From: Nocardia carnea
Lineage (GTDB): Bacteria; Actinomycetota; Actinomycetes; Mycobacteriales; Mycobacteriaceae
DNA: 64,000 nucleotides
Direction: 5' to 3'
NCBI RefSeq assembly: GCF_029868325.1
Contig: NZ_JARWNW010000266.1
Span: 1-64,000, forward strand
Below are positions 9,668 through 48,668 of the stretch, piece after piece. The translations under genes were made by a program, and so were the position numbers. The notes under the pieces were generated by a model. It was not told the origin of the DNA. It ran no database searches and was given only the letters and a program-made list of their open reading frames with translations. Within the stretch, counting starts at the first letter, position 1, and each line of letters begins with the position of its first letter.

Positions 9668-10866
9668 CGACCGGCTCCCTTCGGCGTGCATTCCGGCTGG
9701 TATTCCGGCCAGGGGCCGGTGGGAACGTTATCGGGGCCGAATTCGACGAGCACCAGACCGCAGGCCGAATCGGGGGCGATATGGTCGTCCGGCGCGAACG
9801 ACAGGGTCAGCGGTGCCTGCCCGAAGCTCGCCGGAACATCCCGGACCTGCTGCATCGCCTCGTTGAGCCGCTGCCGGTCGGTATGGGTTCCGGCGAGTTC
9901 GATCGCCCGCGCCAGCAACATCACCGAGTCGTAGGCCTGCGCGTCGTAGGCGGTCAGCGAGTAGTCCGGTCCTTTGACGGTCCGCAGCCAGTCCTGCAGT
10001 TCCGCGGTCCGGGGGTTGCTGTCGCTCAGACTGCCCATGTACACGAGACCGTCGAGCGAACCCGGTGCCGCGAGTTTCCACGACTGGGGCTGGTTTCCGA
10101 TCGACGCCAGCGAGAAGCGCTGCAACCCGGGCGCGAGCCGGTGCACCGTGTTCTGCGCGAGCAGCTCGAAATTACCGCCGACGCTCGCGACGAGCACCAC
10201 ATCGGGGTCGCTGTCGAGTAGCCGGCTCACTCCGGCGGTGAGATCGGCAGCGTCGACGGCGGCTTTCGCGGTGCCGACGATATCGATGCACTCCCGCAAT
10301 TTCGGGTAGAGGGTATCGAGAATGCCCGCGATCGCGGGACTGGAATCGGCCAGCACCCCGAGCCGCTTCTTGCCCTGTGCCGCGAACGCGCCGCAGTAGA
10401 CGTCGGCGTACTGGGCCAGCGGATTGGGCACCATATACGCGTACTCGTTACCGGGCGGCCCGGCGACCGCATCGGTCAGCGCGGTCGGTGCGATGGTGAC
10501 GACCTCGGTGGACTGCGATATCTGCTTGGCCTGCAACGCCGAACCGCTCCCCGTGGCGAGGATGACCGCGGAGGCGCCCTGGTCGACCAGTTTGCGGATG
10601 ATGGAGGGCGTATTCGTCGGACTGCTCTCGTCGTTCTCCACCACCAGCCGGACCTCTTTGCCGCCGATACCGCCGTCGGCGTTGAGCCGGTTCACCGCGG
10701 CGCGGACGGTATTGCCGGCGATCGTCGAATACGACGCCCCCGGTCCGGTCGAATCCTCGTCCATCCCGATAACGATGTAATCGTCCACCGGTTCGCGGAC
10801 CTGGGCACATCCCGCCGGCAACAATGCCGCGGCCAGCACCCAGGCGAGTACCCGGGCACGTCTCAT
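9664..10866 (-). CDS. livK: ABC transporter substrate-binding lipoprotein (LivK-like)
   Basis: 400 aa. MRRARVLAWVLAAALLPAGC is a lipoprotein signal with lipobox LPAG-C20. The rest is a periplasmic-binding-protein type I fold (VNRLNADGGIGGKEVRLVVEND, then VAGPPGNEYAYMVPNP). It captures the substrate outside the membrane for LivHMGF. ATG 10866 is preferred over an ATG 18 bases upstream because it starts the signal peptide directly. It is the first structural gene after a TetR gene, with two operator-like palindromes in between. Confidence 0.88.
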   Translation of the reverse strand: MRRARVLAWVLAAALLPAGCAQVREPVDDYIVIGMDEDSTGPGASYSTIAGNTVRAAVNRLNADGGIGGKEVRLVVENDESSPTNTPSIIRKLVDQGASAVILATGSGSALQAKQISQSTEVVTIAPTALTDAVAGPPGNEYAYMVPNPLAQYADVYCGAFAAQGKKRLGVLADSSPAIAGILDTLYPKLRECIDIVGTAKAAVDAADLTAGVSRLLDSDPDVVLVASVGGNFELLAQNTVHRLAPGLQRFSLASIGNQPQSWKLAAPGSLDGLVYMGSLSDSNPRTAELQDWLRTVKGPDYSLTAYDAQAYDSVMLLARAIELAGTHTDRQRLNEAMQQVRDVPASFGQAPLTLSFAPDDHIAPDSACGLVLVEFGPDNVPTGPWPEYQPECTPKGAGR

Positions 10867-46254: not shown

Positions 46255-46682
46255 CCGGCCCCGGCAGTTCACTCGGCCAGGTGCCCGCCGATCTCTGTGG
46301 TCCCCGGCCGATAGTGTGGCACCACCGCCGCCGACGTAGCCGGGCTATTCGCTGGTGCAGGGTGATTCGCGCGCCGCCACCTGCCAGGCGACAGGCGCTG
46401 TCCCGGATTTGCTCGGTGATGGCCTTGCCGGTGTGCCGATGCGGGCAACGGCGTGTTACCCGGCGGTTCGTGTGGTGGGCGAAACGCATTGCCGTGATGT
46501 TCCTTCCGGGCCTGGGCGGATCGCGCGAGAGAAATTACACTCGGCGTCGGGTTCGGGTGAAGAGCCTGTGCCCGGCTCCATGCGTTGGCCCTCGTGGAGG
46601 GTATCGAGTAGGAACTGTCGGGCTCGATGGGGAATGCGGGATCGGCCTCGCGAGCGTGGATCGGTAGGAACTGGAAACGCTC
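46255..46682. other. 428-base non-coding stretch after the hydrolase operon
   Basis: No gene supported. Two copies of TAGGAACTG (near 46612 and 46668), each followed within 20 bases by an ATGGG, suggest a small duplication of a ribosome-binding region; only the second leads into a plausible small protein. No clear terminator hairpin with a U-run was found after cocE-like. Confidence 0.45.
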
Positions 46683-46844
46683 ATGGGCAAGGAAGCTCGC
46701 GACCCCACCGCGGCGCTGGCGGACCGTCTGGACAACGACCCCGCTACGACAACGGTTTCGTCGTTCGTCGTCGAGGCGCGTCGCCGCGGTGTGGATCCGT
46801 CGCAGTTACTGGATGCCGACTTCTTTCTCCGCGGCACCGACTAG
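46683..46844 (+). CDS. Small hypothetical protein (53 aa)
   Basis: MGKEARDPTAALADRL... ends LLDADFFLRGTD. Acidic-basic soluble peptide with no motif recognised. It has TAGGAACTGG about 10 bases before the ATG. Third codon positions are GC-rich. Its last 39 bases overlap the XRE gene on the other strand. It may be a real small gene at the border of the phage-like island or chance. Confidence 0.4.
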   Translation: MGKEARDPTAALADRLDNDPATTTVSSFVVEARRRGVDPSQLLDADFFLRGTD

Positions 46845-47090
46845 TTCGCTGGGCCGGATCCCGAACGCCCGGCAGATCTTGTACAGCTGCGTCACGGTCA
46901 TCGCTCGTTCGCCGTGTTCGAGCCGGGCAATGGTCTTCTTGTTGTAGCCGGTCGCCTCGGCCAGTGCCTCCTGGGTCCAGCCGCGGCGGGCGCGCATCGC
47001 ACGCACCTCCGCGCCCAGCGCCGCGTCCAGCCTCGCCTCCTCGGCGGTCGCGTCCTCCGACTCGGCGGGCGTCGCATTCATGTCGACCAT
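46806..47090 (-). CDS. XRE-family transcriptional regulator
   Basis: 94 aa. Cro/C1-type HTH in the second half: LGAEVRAMRARRGWTQEALAEATGYNKKTIARLEHGERAMTVTQLYKICRAFG. About 30 acidic residues precede it. ATG 47090 or 47081; neither has a strong SD, and a TTG start 27 bases upstream is possible. It is divergent from the lysin gene, in the position of a phage immunity repressor, and palindromes lie near the lysin promoter. Confidence 0.82.
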   Translation of the reverse strand: MVDMNATPAESEDATAEEARLDAALGAEVRAMRARRGWTQEALAEATGYNKKTIARLEHGERAMTVTQLYKICRAFGIRPSELVGAAEKEVGIQ

Positions 47091-47197
47091 TCTGGGAGGG
47101 GGCAGGGTCTTAATCAAGTGCCCGATAGCTTCGGCACGGCGTGCAGAGCGTCTCCTTTCAAAGGGACCGTACGGGGGTATTTACAGACTGAAATAGG

Positions 47198-47271
47198 TTG
47201 AAAAGCGACCAATGCGGGCATACTCTGAAGTAGAGCGGGTGACTATCACCGCAGTTCAGAACCTCGAACTG
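47198..47271 (+). promoter_or_regulatory. Promoter and operator-like repeats ahead of the lysin gene
   Basis: TTGAAA (47198-47203), 17-base spacer, TACTCT (47221-47226). Downstream come GGTGA-CTA-TCACC (47238-47250) and CAGTTC-N8-GAACTG (47252-47271), both perfect and placed over the expected start of the transcript. They could be sites for the divergent XRE protein. Confidence 0.55.
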
Positions 47272-47339
47272 TGATGGTTGCCGGCGGCACCGGGAATCGC
47301 GCGGTGCATGCGCAATTCGAACGAGGGCAGGAGGGTCCG

Positions 47340-48143
47340 ATGAGCTGGAGCGGCGACCCGATCTGGCTGGCCGATGTGCTCCGCGACGCCGGCCTCGCCG
47401 TTATCGAACACGACGGCTGGCGCGAACGCGGCCACGGCGATTTCCTCGATATCCGCGGCGTCCTGTGCCATCACACGGCCGGCGGCGGCCCGGACGACTG
47501 GCGCGTCGTGCAGAACGGACGCCCCGGGCTCCCGGGGCCACTCGCACAACTGGTGCTCGAAAAGGACGGCAGCTACCGGGTGATCGCCGTCGGTGTCTGC
47601 TGGCACGCCGGCCGCGGCGGTTGGCCGGGCTGGCCCACCGACAACGCGAACTATCACACGATCGGAATCGAAGCCGTCTCCCGCGGCACCCCGCCCTGGG
47701 ACTGGACCCCGGCGCAGCTCGATGCCTACAAACGCGGCTGCGCCGCGATCCTGGGCCGCCTCGGCCGCGGCGCCGGCGATTGCGTGGCCCATCACGAGTA
47801 CTCGAGCGAGGGAAAGATCGACCCGGCGGGTATCGATATGAACGCCTTCCGCCGGGATGTACAGGCACTACTGGACGGAAGGGGCGAAGAAATGGCCTTC
47901 CTCGATGAGAAGATCACGAACCACCACGGTGACGAGGTCACCGTCCGGACCATGCTGCATTACCTCGACAAACATGTCGGGCTCGCGCTGGACCAGCTCG
48001 CCGGATCGGGCACCGCCCGCGGCGCGGATTTCCCGGGCTGGGATTTCCTGGGCGACCGGACGACCGCCGAGGCGCTCGGGGTGATCGGTGCGGCCCTGAA
48101 GATTCCCGGGTTCCGCGACCCCACCAGCGACCGGCGCGCCTGA
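47340..48143 (+). CDS. N-acetylmuramoyl-L-alanine amidase, phage-endolysin type
   Basis: 267 aa. Amidase_2 domain (about residues 1-180): VLCHHTAGGGPDDW supplies the first zinc His, WHAGRGGWPG and NYHTIGIEAVS are core motifs, and CVAHHEYSSEGKIDPAG carries the second His and the conserved KxDP. The C-terminal 85 residues (FLDEKITNHHGDEVTVRTMLHYLDKH) resemble a tail seen in mycobacteriophage LysA proteins. No signal peptide, so release needs a holin or lysis. CAGGAGG before ATG 47340. Confidence 0.87.
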   Translation: MSWSGDPIWLADVLRDAGLAVIEHDGWRERGHGDFLDIRGVLCHHTAGGGPDDWRVVQNGRPGLPGPLAQLVLEKDGSYRVIAVGVCWHAGRGGWPGWPTDNANYHTIGIEAVSRGTPPWDWTPAQLDAYKRGCAAILGRLGRGAGDCVAHHEYSSEGKIDPAGIDMNAFRRDVQALLDGRGEEMAFLDEKITNHHGDEVTVRTMLHYLDKHVGLALDQLAGSGTARGADFPGWDFLGDRTTAEALGVIGAALKIPGFRDPTSDRRA

Positions 48144-48178
48144 GGGGCTGCGCCGATCCGGCCGGAGAGGAGGACAGC

Positions 48179-48541
48179 ATGCTCACCGAACTGGCTTCTG
48201 TCCTCGGCGGCCTGGTCACCGGCGTGGGTGGTGTCTGCGCGGCCGGGTTGCTCAGCAGGCGTAAACGCCGGGCCGATGCGGTTCAGGTACTCACGCAGGC
48301 GGCCGCGCAGATGGTCGAACCGCTGTCCCGGCAGATCGCGGCCATGACCGCCGAACTGGAGGCACACCGGCGGGTGGTCGCCGATTCCGAACAGCGCTGC
48401 CGCCTCGCCGCCTCTCAGCACACGGCCTGGGACGTGGTGGTCCGCTCGTCACTACTGAATCTGGGTGTCGATGTGCCGCCCCCGCCGCCCATGACCGACG
48501 ACGGGTCCGGCCTGCCGCGACACGCGGACCCGCGACCGTAA
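48179..48541 (+). CDS. Membrane-anchored coiled-coil protein, holin-like position
   Basis: 120 aa. One N-terminal hydrophobic segment (LASVLGGLVTGVGGVCAAGLL, about residues 5-25), then RRKRR and an amphipathic helix (QVLTQAAAQMVEPLSRQIAAMTAELEAH), then a Pro-rich tail. It follows the lysin by 35 bases with GGAGAGGAGG, the usual place of a holin or spanin-like gene in mycobacteriophages. After TAA the same frame stays open for 27 more codons to 48625, suggesting a longer ancestor. Confidence 0.65.
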   Translation: MLTELASVLGGLVTGVGGVCAAGLLSRRKRRADAVQVLTQAAAQMVEPLSRQIAAMTAELEAHRRVVADSEQRCRLAASQHTAWDVVVRSSLLNLGVDVPPPPPMTDDGSGLPRHADPRP

Positions 48542-48668
48542 CCGGACTACGCGGCCGATATCGCCGCGGCCGTCATCGTGGCGCGGTTGCGGGAGGAAAA
48601 GGCGCCACGCACTGCGCGCCGCTGATCAGGCGCGTCGCCCGCACGAATGCGGGGACCGCCGCGAGCTT

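Follow-up and report, generated by a model that had tools for sequence, protein, structure and literature searches.

A phage-derived immunity-lysis cassette with a possible role as a repressed self-lysis switch in a clade of Nocardia

Several described systems resemble a four-gene unit, here called the cassette, which we analysed within a stretch of 64,000 nucleotides of Nocardia carnea (contig NZ_JARWNW010000266.1 of assembly GCF_029868325.1, positions 1 to 64,000 of the forward strand; the window). The Alp system of Pseudomonas aeruginosa (alpRABCDE) likewise consists, as outlined in PMC7969949, of chromosomal, likely prophage-derived and repressor-controlled lysis genes that include a putative holin. 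Its hallmarks, a repressor cleaved upon DNA damage and the antiterminator AlpA, are not found here: the unit has no AlpA-like gene, its repressor XRE of 94 amino acids (aa) has no visible autoproteolytic domain, and the operator array lies on the lysis promoter itself. The cassette moreover encodes an endolysin within the unit and a small extra protein, SM; by analogy it would work like Alp, without belonging to the Alp family. In the cryptic prophage Qin of E. coli, a phage-type repressor (DicA) and its promoter govern the toxic, host-acting operon dicBF, whose targets in the account of PMC10448788 are cell division and phage infection rather than lysis, and which lies within a larger prophage remnant. 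The DLP12 lysis module of E. coli K-12 is a domesticated lysis operon of a defective prophage but comprises a holin, an endolysin and two spanins and is linked to vesicle control, with no fused immunity repressor described in the portions of PMC7918800 devoted to it. Phage-derived lysis genes also serve release in type 10 secretion and the Yersinia lysis cassettes and in the case of TcdE (PMC10847048, PMC10101115, PMC6200909), where, as far as these sources go, a particular cargo is released; none is linked to the Nocardia cassette. A limited literature search found no description of such a cassette in Nocardia.

Judging from sequence, we propose with a probability of roughly 0.65 that the cassette is a domesticated fusion of phage immunity and lysis modules that acts as a repressed self-lysis switch, and that carrier Nocardia probably hold such a switch as a built-in device. 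Its anatomy, origin and selection appear well supported, while its function is what we infer. The parts and their order, retention throughout a clade, purifying selection, an operator array shared with prophages and a prophage holding both halves were all observed. Parental-type prophage, reduced device, shared array and clade-wide retention together make an unusually complete phage domestication readable, and the cassette turns selection for repressed self-lysis in actinobacteria into a testable question.

Anatomy of the cassette

The gene order is SM (53 aa), the repressor gene XRE, LYS for an amidase endolysin and HOL for a protein with one transmembrane (TM) segment and a coiled coil. XRE and LYS form a divergent pair with HOL directly after LYS, and SM and XRE are convergent, their tails overlapping by 39 bp. 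Carriers were compared over 18 sequences, those of 17 carriers and of N. brevicatena. The features of the window are as follows.

46501..46571, + strand: candidate SM promoter block, conserved noncoding DNA with a TACACT (-10-like) core
46604..46682, + strand: SM leader, highly conserved noncoding DNA in alignments, directly 5' of SM
46683..46844, + strand: SM, 53 aa, intact in 18 of 18 sequences, with in-frame codon indels and relatives beside prophage repressors
46806..47090, - strand: XRE, 94 aa, Cro/C1-type repressor with Pfam HTH_3
47163..47178, + strand: O1, operator-like site from matrix scans
47184..47199, + strand: O2, operator-like site from matrix scans, overlapping the -35 box
47198..47226, + strand: LYS-HOL promoter, TTGAAA, 17-bp spacer, TACTCT
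47205..47220, + strand: O3, operator-like site from matrix scans, between -35 and -10, degenerate in the window
47340..48143, + strand: LYS, N-acetylmuramoyl-L-alanine amidase endolysin of 267 aa without hydrophobic signal peptide
48179..48541, + strand: HOL, 120 aa, N-terminal TM segment, RRKRR and a long helix, topology like LysF1b

A preliminary description of this DNA had named an XRE repressor, an amidase lysin and a one-helix/coiled-coil protein, all of which are present. Its range begins at SM; the SM gene itself, the overlap of SM and XRE and the array of three operators were absent from it. What it had said of a phage origin, an own repressor, the loss of the rest of the phage and domestication is borne out, and capsid, tail or integrase genes were not seen near the island in lists of open reading frames (ORFs) read by eye, without a hidden Markov model (HMM) scan.

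XRE matches HTH_3 of Pfam at 2.5e-14, and both the Pfam and the NCBIfam matches cover the helix-turn-helix (HTH) stretch only; an alternative, longer in-frame TTG start lies at 47117. Its matches in phages include immunity repressors with 43% identity. XRE is a putative phage immunity repressor: an HTH and an operator-like array are present, an integrase is missing from the cassette, and integrase-linked relatives occur at two prophage loci, L197 and L198. PADLOC returned 18 generic HTH-type matches to XRE and, among its core proteins, no match to SM, LYS or HOL at E<=0.01; the cassette is not among the defence systems known to PADLOC.

LYS has the characters of a phage endolysin (amidase of the PHROG 880 type, 7.4e-53; Amidase_2, 3.2e-16), and its one match to a solved structure at E<=0.01 is an amidase (PDB 9hna, 2.2e-40). 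The HH pair (44-45) and the downstream H...KxDP motif, whose residues we take to bind zinc, are retained in 18 of 18 sequences. The window's own genome holds a single LYS match at E<=0.001. LYS found matches in 896 of 50,697 phage records, none above 80% identity, and there was no match for HOL (E<=0.01) or SM (E<=1); viral contigs yielded one weak relative of XRE and one of HOL. In a tree of the amidase part only, in which rows L022 and L051 represent one gene, the LYS proteins of the cassettes group together as a single clade (97/93), apart from 21 other rows from Nocardia or viral contigs. The surroundings were read for part of these 21 rows, and many are phage-like, at least three not. Lone LYS-type amidase genes (near 9.5-10.4 kb) stand amid ordinary-looking chromosomal genes at L047, L050 and L057, with no phage genes seen near them in the ORF lists, and are possibly further domestications of the same endolysin family. 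One carrier (G109, contig C20) has a second LYS at 9870-10694 of locus L053, followed by phage-like genes and with an amidase part 84% identical to the cassette's.

HOL carries a single hydrophobic segment, which peaks at 1.8 on the Kyte-Doolittle scale from residue 8 and is followed by RRKRR; this segment lies inside one long predicted helix (pLDDT 82.5). It belongs to no Pfam or NCBIfam family and has no BFVD fold match at E<=0.001; a weak match leads to PHROG 9090, 'membrane protein' (3.8e-5). Relatives of HOL lie directly after LYS in the phage-like loci L046 and L103, and at L045 one lies about 8 kb from LYS, adjoining a Pfam r1t-type holin. LysF1b, which with LysF1a makes up the lysis proteins of F1 mycobacteriophages portrayed in PMC13056207, is alike in size, in its single N-terminal TM domain, in the basic residues after it and in its long charged helix; the likeness is one of topology, which for HOL was judged without a prediction program. 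A two-TM partner gene is absent from the cassette. If lysis is confirmed, a LysF1b-like protein could serve without a two-TM partner.

Control region and prophage counterparts

The LYS promoter reads TTGAAA or TTGTAA, 17 bp, TANNNT in 18 of the 18 carriers compared, and in all 18 it comes with three operator-like sites at a spacing of 21 bp, O1 lying 21 bp upstream of O2, O2 over the -35 box and O3 in the spacer. The operator consensus over 54 sites is GGGACCGAAAAGGGTT, its steadiest parts being GACC and GG. Ranked with a leave-one-out matrix built from O3, with one base of slack for O1 and O2, the three sites came within the top 6 of 2684 positions everywhere except in G003 and G099. A matrix match at a steady place inside the XRE coding sequence recurs in most genomes; it was ascribed to coding conservation and left unused. 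Two palindromes that the preliminary description had placed in the promoter do exist (GGTGACTATCACC at 47238-47250 and CAGTTC...GAACTG at 47252-47271), but the longest perfect arm there, 6 bases, was reached in 121 of 500 simple shuffles. Both palindromes are situated 3' of the -10 box, and not all of the nine carriers aligned have them. The better-supported control repeats are those of the operator array upstream of them. A scan for a LexA box, against an actinobacterial box, gave best sites with 2-5 mismatches of 12 that differ between genomes. With no convincing LexA box among them and no autocleavage domain visible in XRE, classical SOS release is unsupported.

Prophages have this array as well. 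Of 2.39 million positions scanned over both strands, 37 scored above 18, all of them in cassettes, some present under two locus ids, or at L198 and L197, which belong to the non-carriers G018 and G036 and scored 40.4 (tied best) and 27.7; the scan comprised the fetched loci minus L001-L030, L071-L102 and L120-L196 (rpoC, other small stretches and short duplicates of places already covered). Both loci are immunity regions with a relative of XRE (44% identity at L198, 58% at L197), an adjoining relative of SM and, according to PHROG, an integrase and RecT. The promoter at L197 is TTGAAA-N17-TACGGT, as in several cassettes, and that at L198 TTGCTT-N17-TAATGT (read by eye); the first frame downstream resembles, again by eye, the start of a small HTH protein at both. 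Since the arrays and the relatives of XRE and SM lie in prophage immunity regions, the regulatory half of the cassette is by all appearances a phage immunity switch.

Both halves stand together in a prophage of G018, where contig C23 carries in a single run an integrase (215.4-216.9 kb), XRE (213.3 kb), the array (213.1 kb), early genes, a terminase (191.8-193.5 kb), a portal, a tape-measure-sized gene, tail-like genes (by eye) and LYS (172.7-171.5 kb). LYS and nearly all genes between it and the array have the orientation in which the array's promoter would transcribe. The G018 LYS has an extra N-terminal part; over the amidase stretch it shares 83% identity with that of the window. After it come a small protein in which two hydrophobic stretches were recognised by eye, labelled 'minor tail protein' by PHROGs, and a second small protein that is no HOL homologue at 1e-5. 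A deletion of about 40 kb in a G018-like prophage would yield XRE, promoter and LYS. G018 need not be the ancestor itself; its lineage lies in the sister group of the carriers in the rpoC tree. For the preliminary description, the island would be an ordinary remnant if related strains carried a complete prophage at this position; none was seen in the carrier loci inspected (ORF lists, flanks without HMM scan, G015 being too short to judge), and the full prophage with both halves sits in the non-carrier G018 at its own integrase-linked place.

A 33-base two-site pattern, allowing for one mismatch at most, gave 53 matches in 39 of 150 genomes: 15 in cassettes (10 carriers), 2 in the G018 array and 36 elsewhere, where the reversed control gave 7. 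Some of these 36 resemble 21-base tandem repeats, and the two that were opened (G117, G146) had no repressor-like gene among the nearby ORFs called; further phage arrays may hide among the remaining matches. The pattern misses degenerate arrays (G036 and the window itself).

Distribution, selection and descent

XRE with at least 77% identity was found in 17 of 150 genomes of the genus; in G015 LYS and HOL are present and the contig ends before XRE. At the level of the family, XRE at E <= 1e-20 occurred in 11 of 401 sampled genomes and in one of 31 genera. Carriers of Nocardia account for 15 of the 16 loci in the GTDB set, the remaining one being a weak match in Demequina, and the named ones are Nocardia carnea, flavorosea, speluncae, fusca, paucivorans, rhamnosiphila, grenadensis, jinanensis, donostiensis, brevicatena, sienata and testacea. 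A second rpoB-like copy, about 84-89% identical to the query, is present in many Nocardia genomes, and in some rpoB matched in pieces, perhaps owing to inteins; rpoC was therefore used for the tree. By both genes the genomes nearest to the window's are G097 and G003. In the rpoC tree of 55 genomes, 17 of 17 carriers form one clade (support 100/99, present in all 200 bootstrap trees), and no non-carrier falls inside it. This is a tree of one gene on a chosen sample, 60 of 147 genomes with a match, mainly those nearest to the window's genome and a few distant ones; five rows with internal stops were dropped (G054, G088, G072, G036, G011) and the other 87 genomes are unplaced. A tree of 60 rows that includes the five gave the same result (SH-aLRT 99).

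Open frames of SM, XRE and LYS are retained in 18 of 18 sequences and that of HOL in 16. The median ratio of nonsynonymous to synonymous divergence (dN/dS) is 0.08 for LYS, 0.16 for XRE, 0.17 for HOL (based on 16 sequences) and 0.32 for SM; the values for SM and XRE exclude their overlap. The median synonymous divergence of 0.46-0.71 would have sufficed for unselected frames to have broken. The unit, with HOL missing in two, occurs at several genomic places, where the neighbours look like ordinary genes (ORF lists) and differ between species. A recent mobile element of 2 kb, suggested by these differing neighbours, is countered by the single carrier clade. The desaturase gene of the window is found about 175-282 kb from the cassette in G031, G051 and G089, in the same relative orientation, which is compatible with a single old locus having been rearranged. 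In G004 and G132 this gene and the cassette are on different contigs, and in G099 the gene was not found.

Proposed function, alternatives and the companion protein SM

In the ancestor of the clade from N. carnea to N. donostiensis, the prophage of a temperate phage would have been stripped of all that lay between its early lytic promoter and the lysis genes, and the remnant immunity module (SM, XRE, three operators and the early promoter) would read straight into LYS and HOL. During normal growth, XRE on the operators over the -35 box and spacer would silence LYS-HOL, repression at O2 and O3 being the simplest reading of the arrangement. Upon loss or displacement of XRE, for which SM is a candidate modulator, LYS would build up in the cytoplasm, and HOL, as a LysF1b-like one-TM protein, would let it reach the wall, with lysis or vesicle shedding as the outcome. 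Within this scheme we infer the binding of XRE, lysis, the trigger, the role of SM and the benefit. Endolysin-driven lysis leads to vesicle release in Corynebacterium glutamicum, according to the account in PMC7835258, and by analogy such release is a possible benefit of the cassette. For the release of toxins, which had been suggested earlier, we found no specific support, and no other gene accompanies the cassette in all loci compared.

A number of observations weigh against a repressed self-lysis switch. HOL is lost in G004 and G132 (2 of 18) with LYS intact, so that in these two a different membrane protein would be required for lysis, or LYS would have another role. The cassette lacks the small gene that adjoins LYS in prophages, which belongs to the r1t-holin family in L045 and is labelled 'minor tail protein' by PHROGs in L103 and G018. 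Some operators are degenerate, O3 of G003 ranking 51 and O1 of G099 ranking 23 of 2684. Within the window, O1, O2 and O3 are outscored by two other positions, the window O3 scores below 6 with the full matrix, and 20 sites across the 64 kb score above 6. The kinship of the 18 sequences inflates operator conservation, and the matrix and the cassettes are not independent of each other, only L197 and L198 being so. Lastly, when three groupings from the rpoC tree were imposed on the cassette, G051+G089+G098 was rejected (p 0.0004) and the other two were not (p 0.30 and 0.16); descent may thus not be purely vertical.

Alternatively, XRE might silence incoming phages that share its operators, and a phage that makes an antirepressor would free LYS-HOL and cause the premature death of the host before virions are formed; the cassette would then be a decoy copy of the phage decision switch wired to premature lysis, with SM setting the threshold. 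Operator arrays of the same kind do lie at the divergent promoter of the prophage repressors in G018 and G036, where the cassette XRE could bind, and DicA, which is relieved by an antirepressor, governs an operon whose small protein guards against phages, as told in PMC10448788, but PADLOC gave generic HTH matches only and no antirepressor was identified, and we consider such a role unlikely. Controlled wall cutting for vesicle release or protein export, as for the DLP12 module or type 10 secretion, would agree with the persistence of LYS without HOL in 2 of 18 carriers and with accounts that the DLP12 lysis module modulates vesicles (PMC7918800) and that vesicles form through the action of an endolysin in Corynebacterium glutamicum (PMC7835258). 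This non-lytic use seems quite improbable, however, as no linked cargo was seen and phage-type repression would favour an all-or-none switch.

Selection of the repressor alone, as superinfection immunity, with LYS and HOL as passengers, would agree with XRE being of phage type and with the array that it has in common with prophages; LYS is nevertheless the most constrained of the four genes (dN/dS 0.08 against 0.16 for XRE) and has kept its amidase motifs in all 18 sequences, which makes this explanation doubtful indeed. That the unit is an ordinary, decaying prophage remnant we regard as hardly credible: it is clearly a prophage fragment and has lost HOL twice, but SM, XRE and LYS are kept in 18 of 18 sequences, promoter and operators are conserved and the clade contains no non-carrier. 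Decay is disfavoured by dN/dS and by the retention across the carrier clade.

No family was found for SM in Pfam, PHROG or NCBIfam, and its predicted structure is weak (pLDDT 67). Because SM partners XRE both within the cassette and outside it, we regard it as a candidate modulator of the repressor, and the cassette thereby points to a phage-repressor companion without a named family. The candidate promoter block is recognisable upstream of SM in 18 carriers at a variable distance; the matches in G004 (E 1e-4) and in G099 (E 0.015) are weak, the core TACACTCGGC being about all that remains there, and no -35 box matching the TACACT core was identified in it. The leader has diverged in G004. A structured RNA was considered for the strongly conserved leader, yet Rfam had no match in the window or L111 and RNAalifold gave a negligible covariation term (-0.46, compensatory pairs 4 of 80). 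Within the noncoding DNA 5' of SM (46501-46682 of the window, 10409-10780 of L111), a 28-base stretch, GCAGGGGTCGGGTAGCTGGAAGGTGTCG, is changed in G099 and absent from the window's own group; it recurs, with one variable base, in 10 of the 10 aligned carriers. In G130 (L199) a weak SM-like match (E 5e-6) stands beside an XRE relative (44%) and an integrase-like gene, with no operator array in the matrix scan. SM-like proteins that end against C1-type repressor genes lie in the prophage immunity regions of L197 (7138-7335, + strand) and L198 (7542-7715, - strand).
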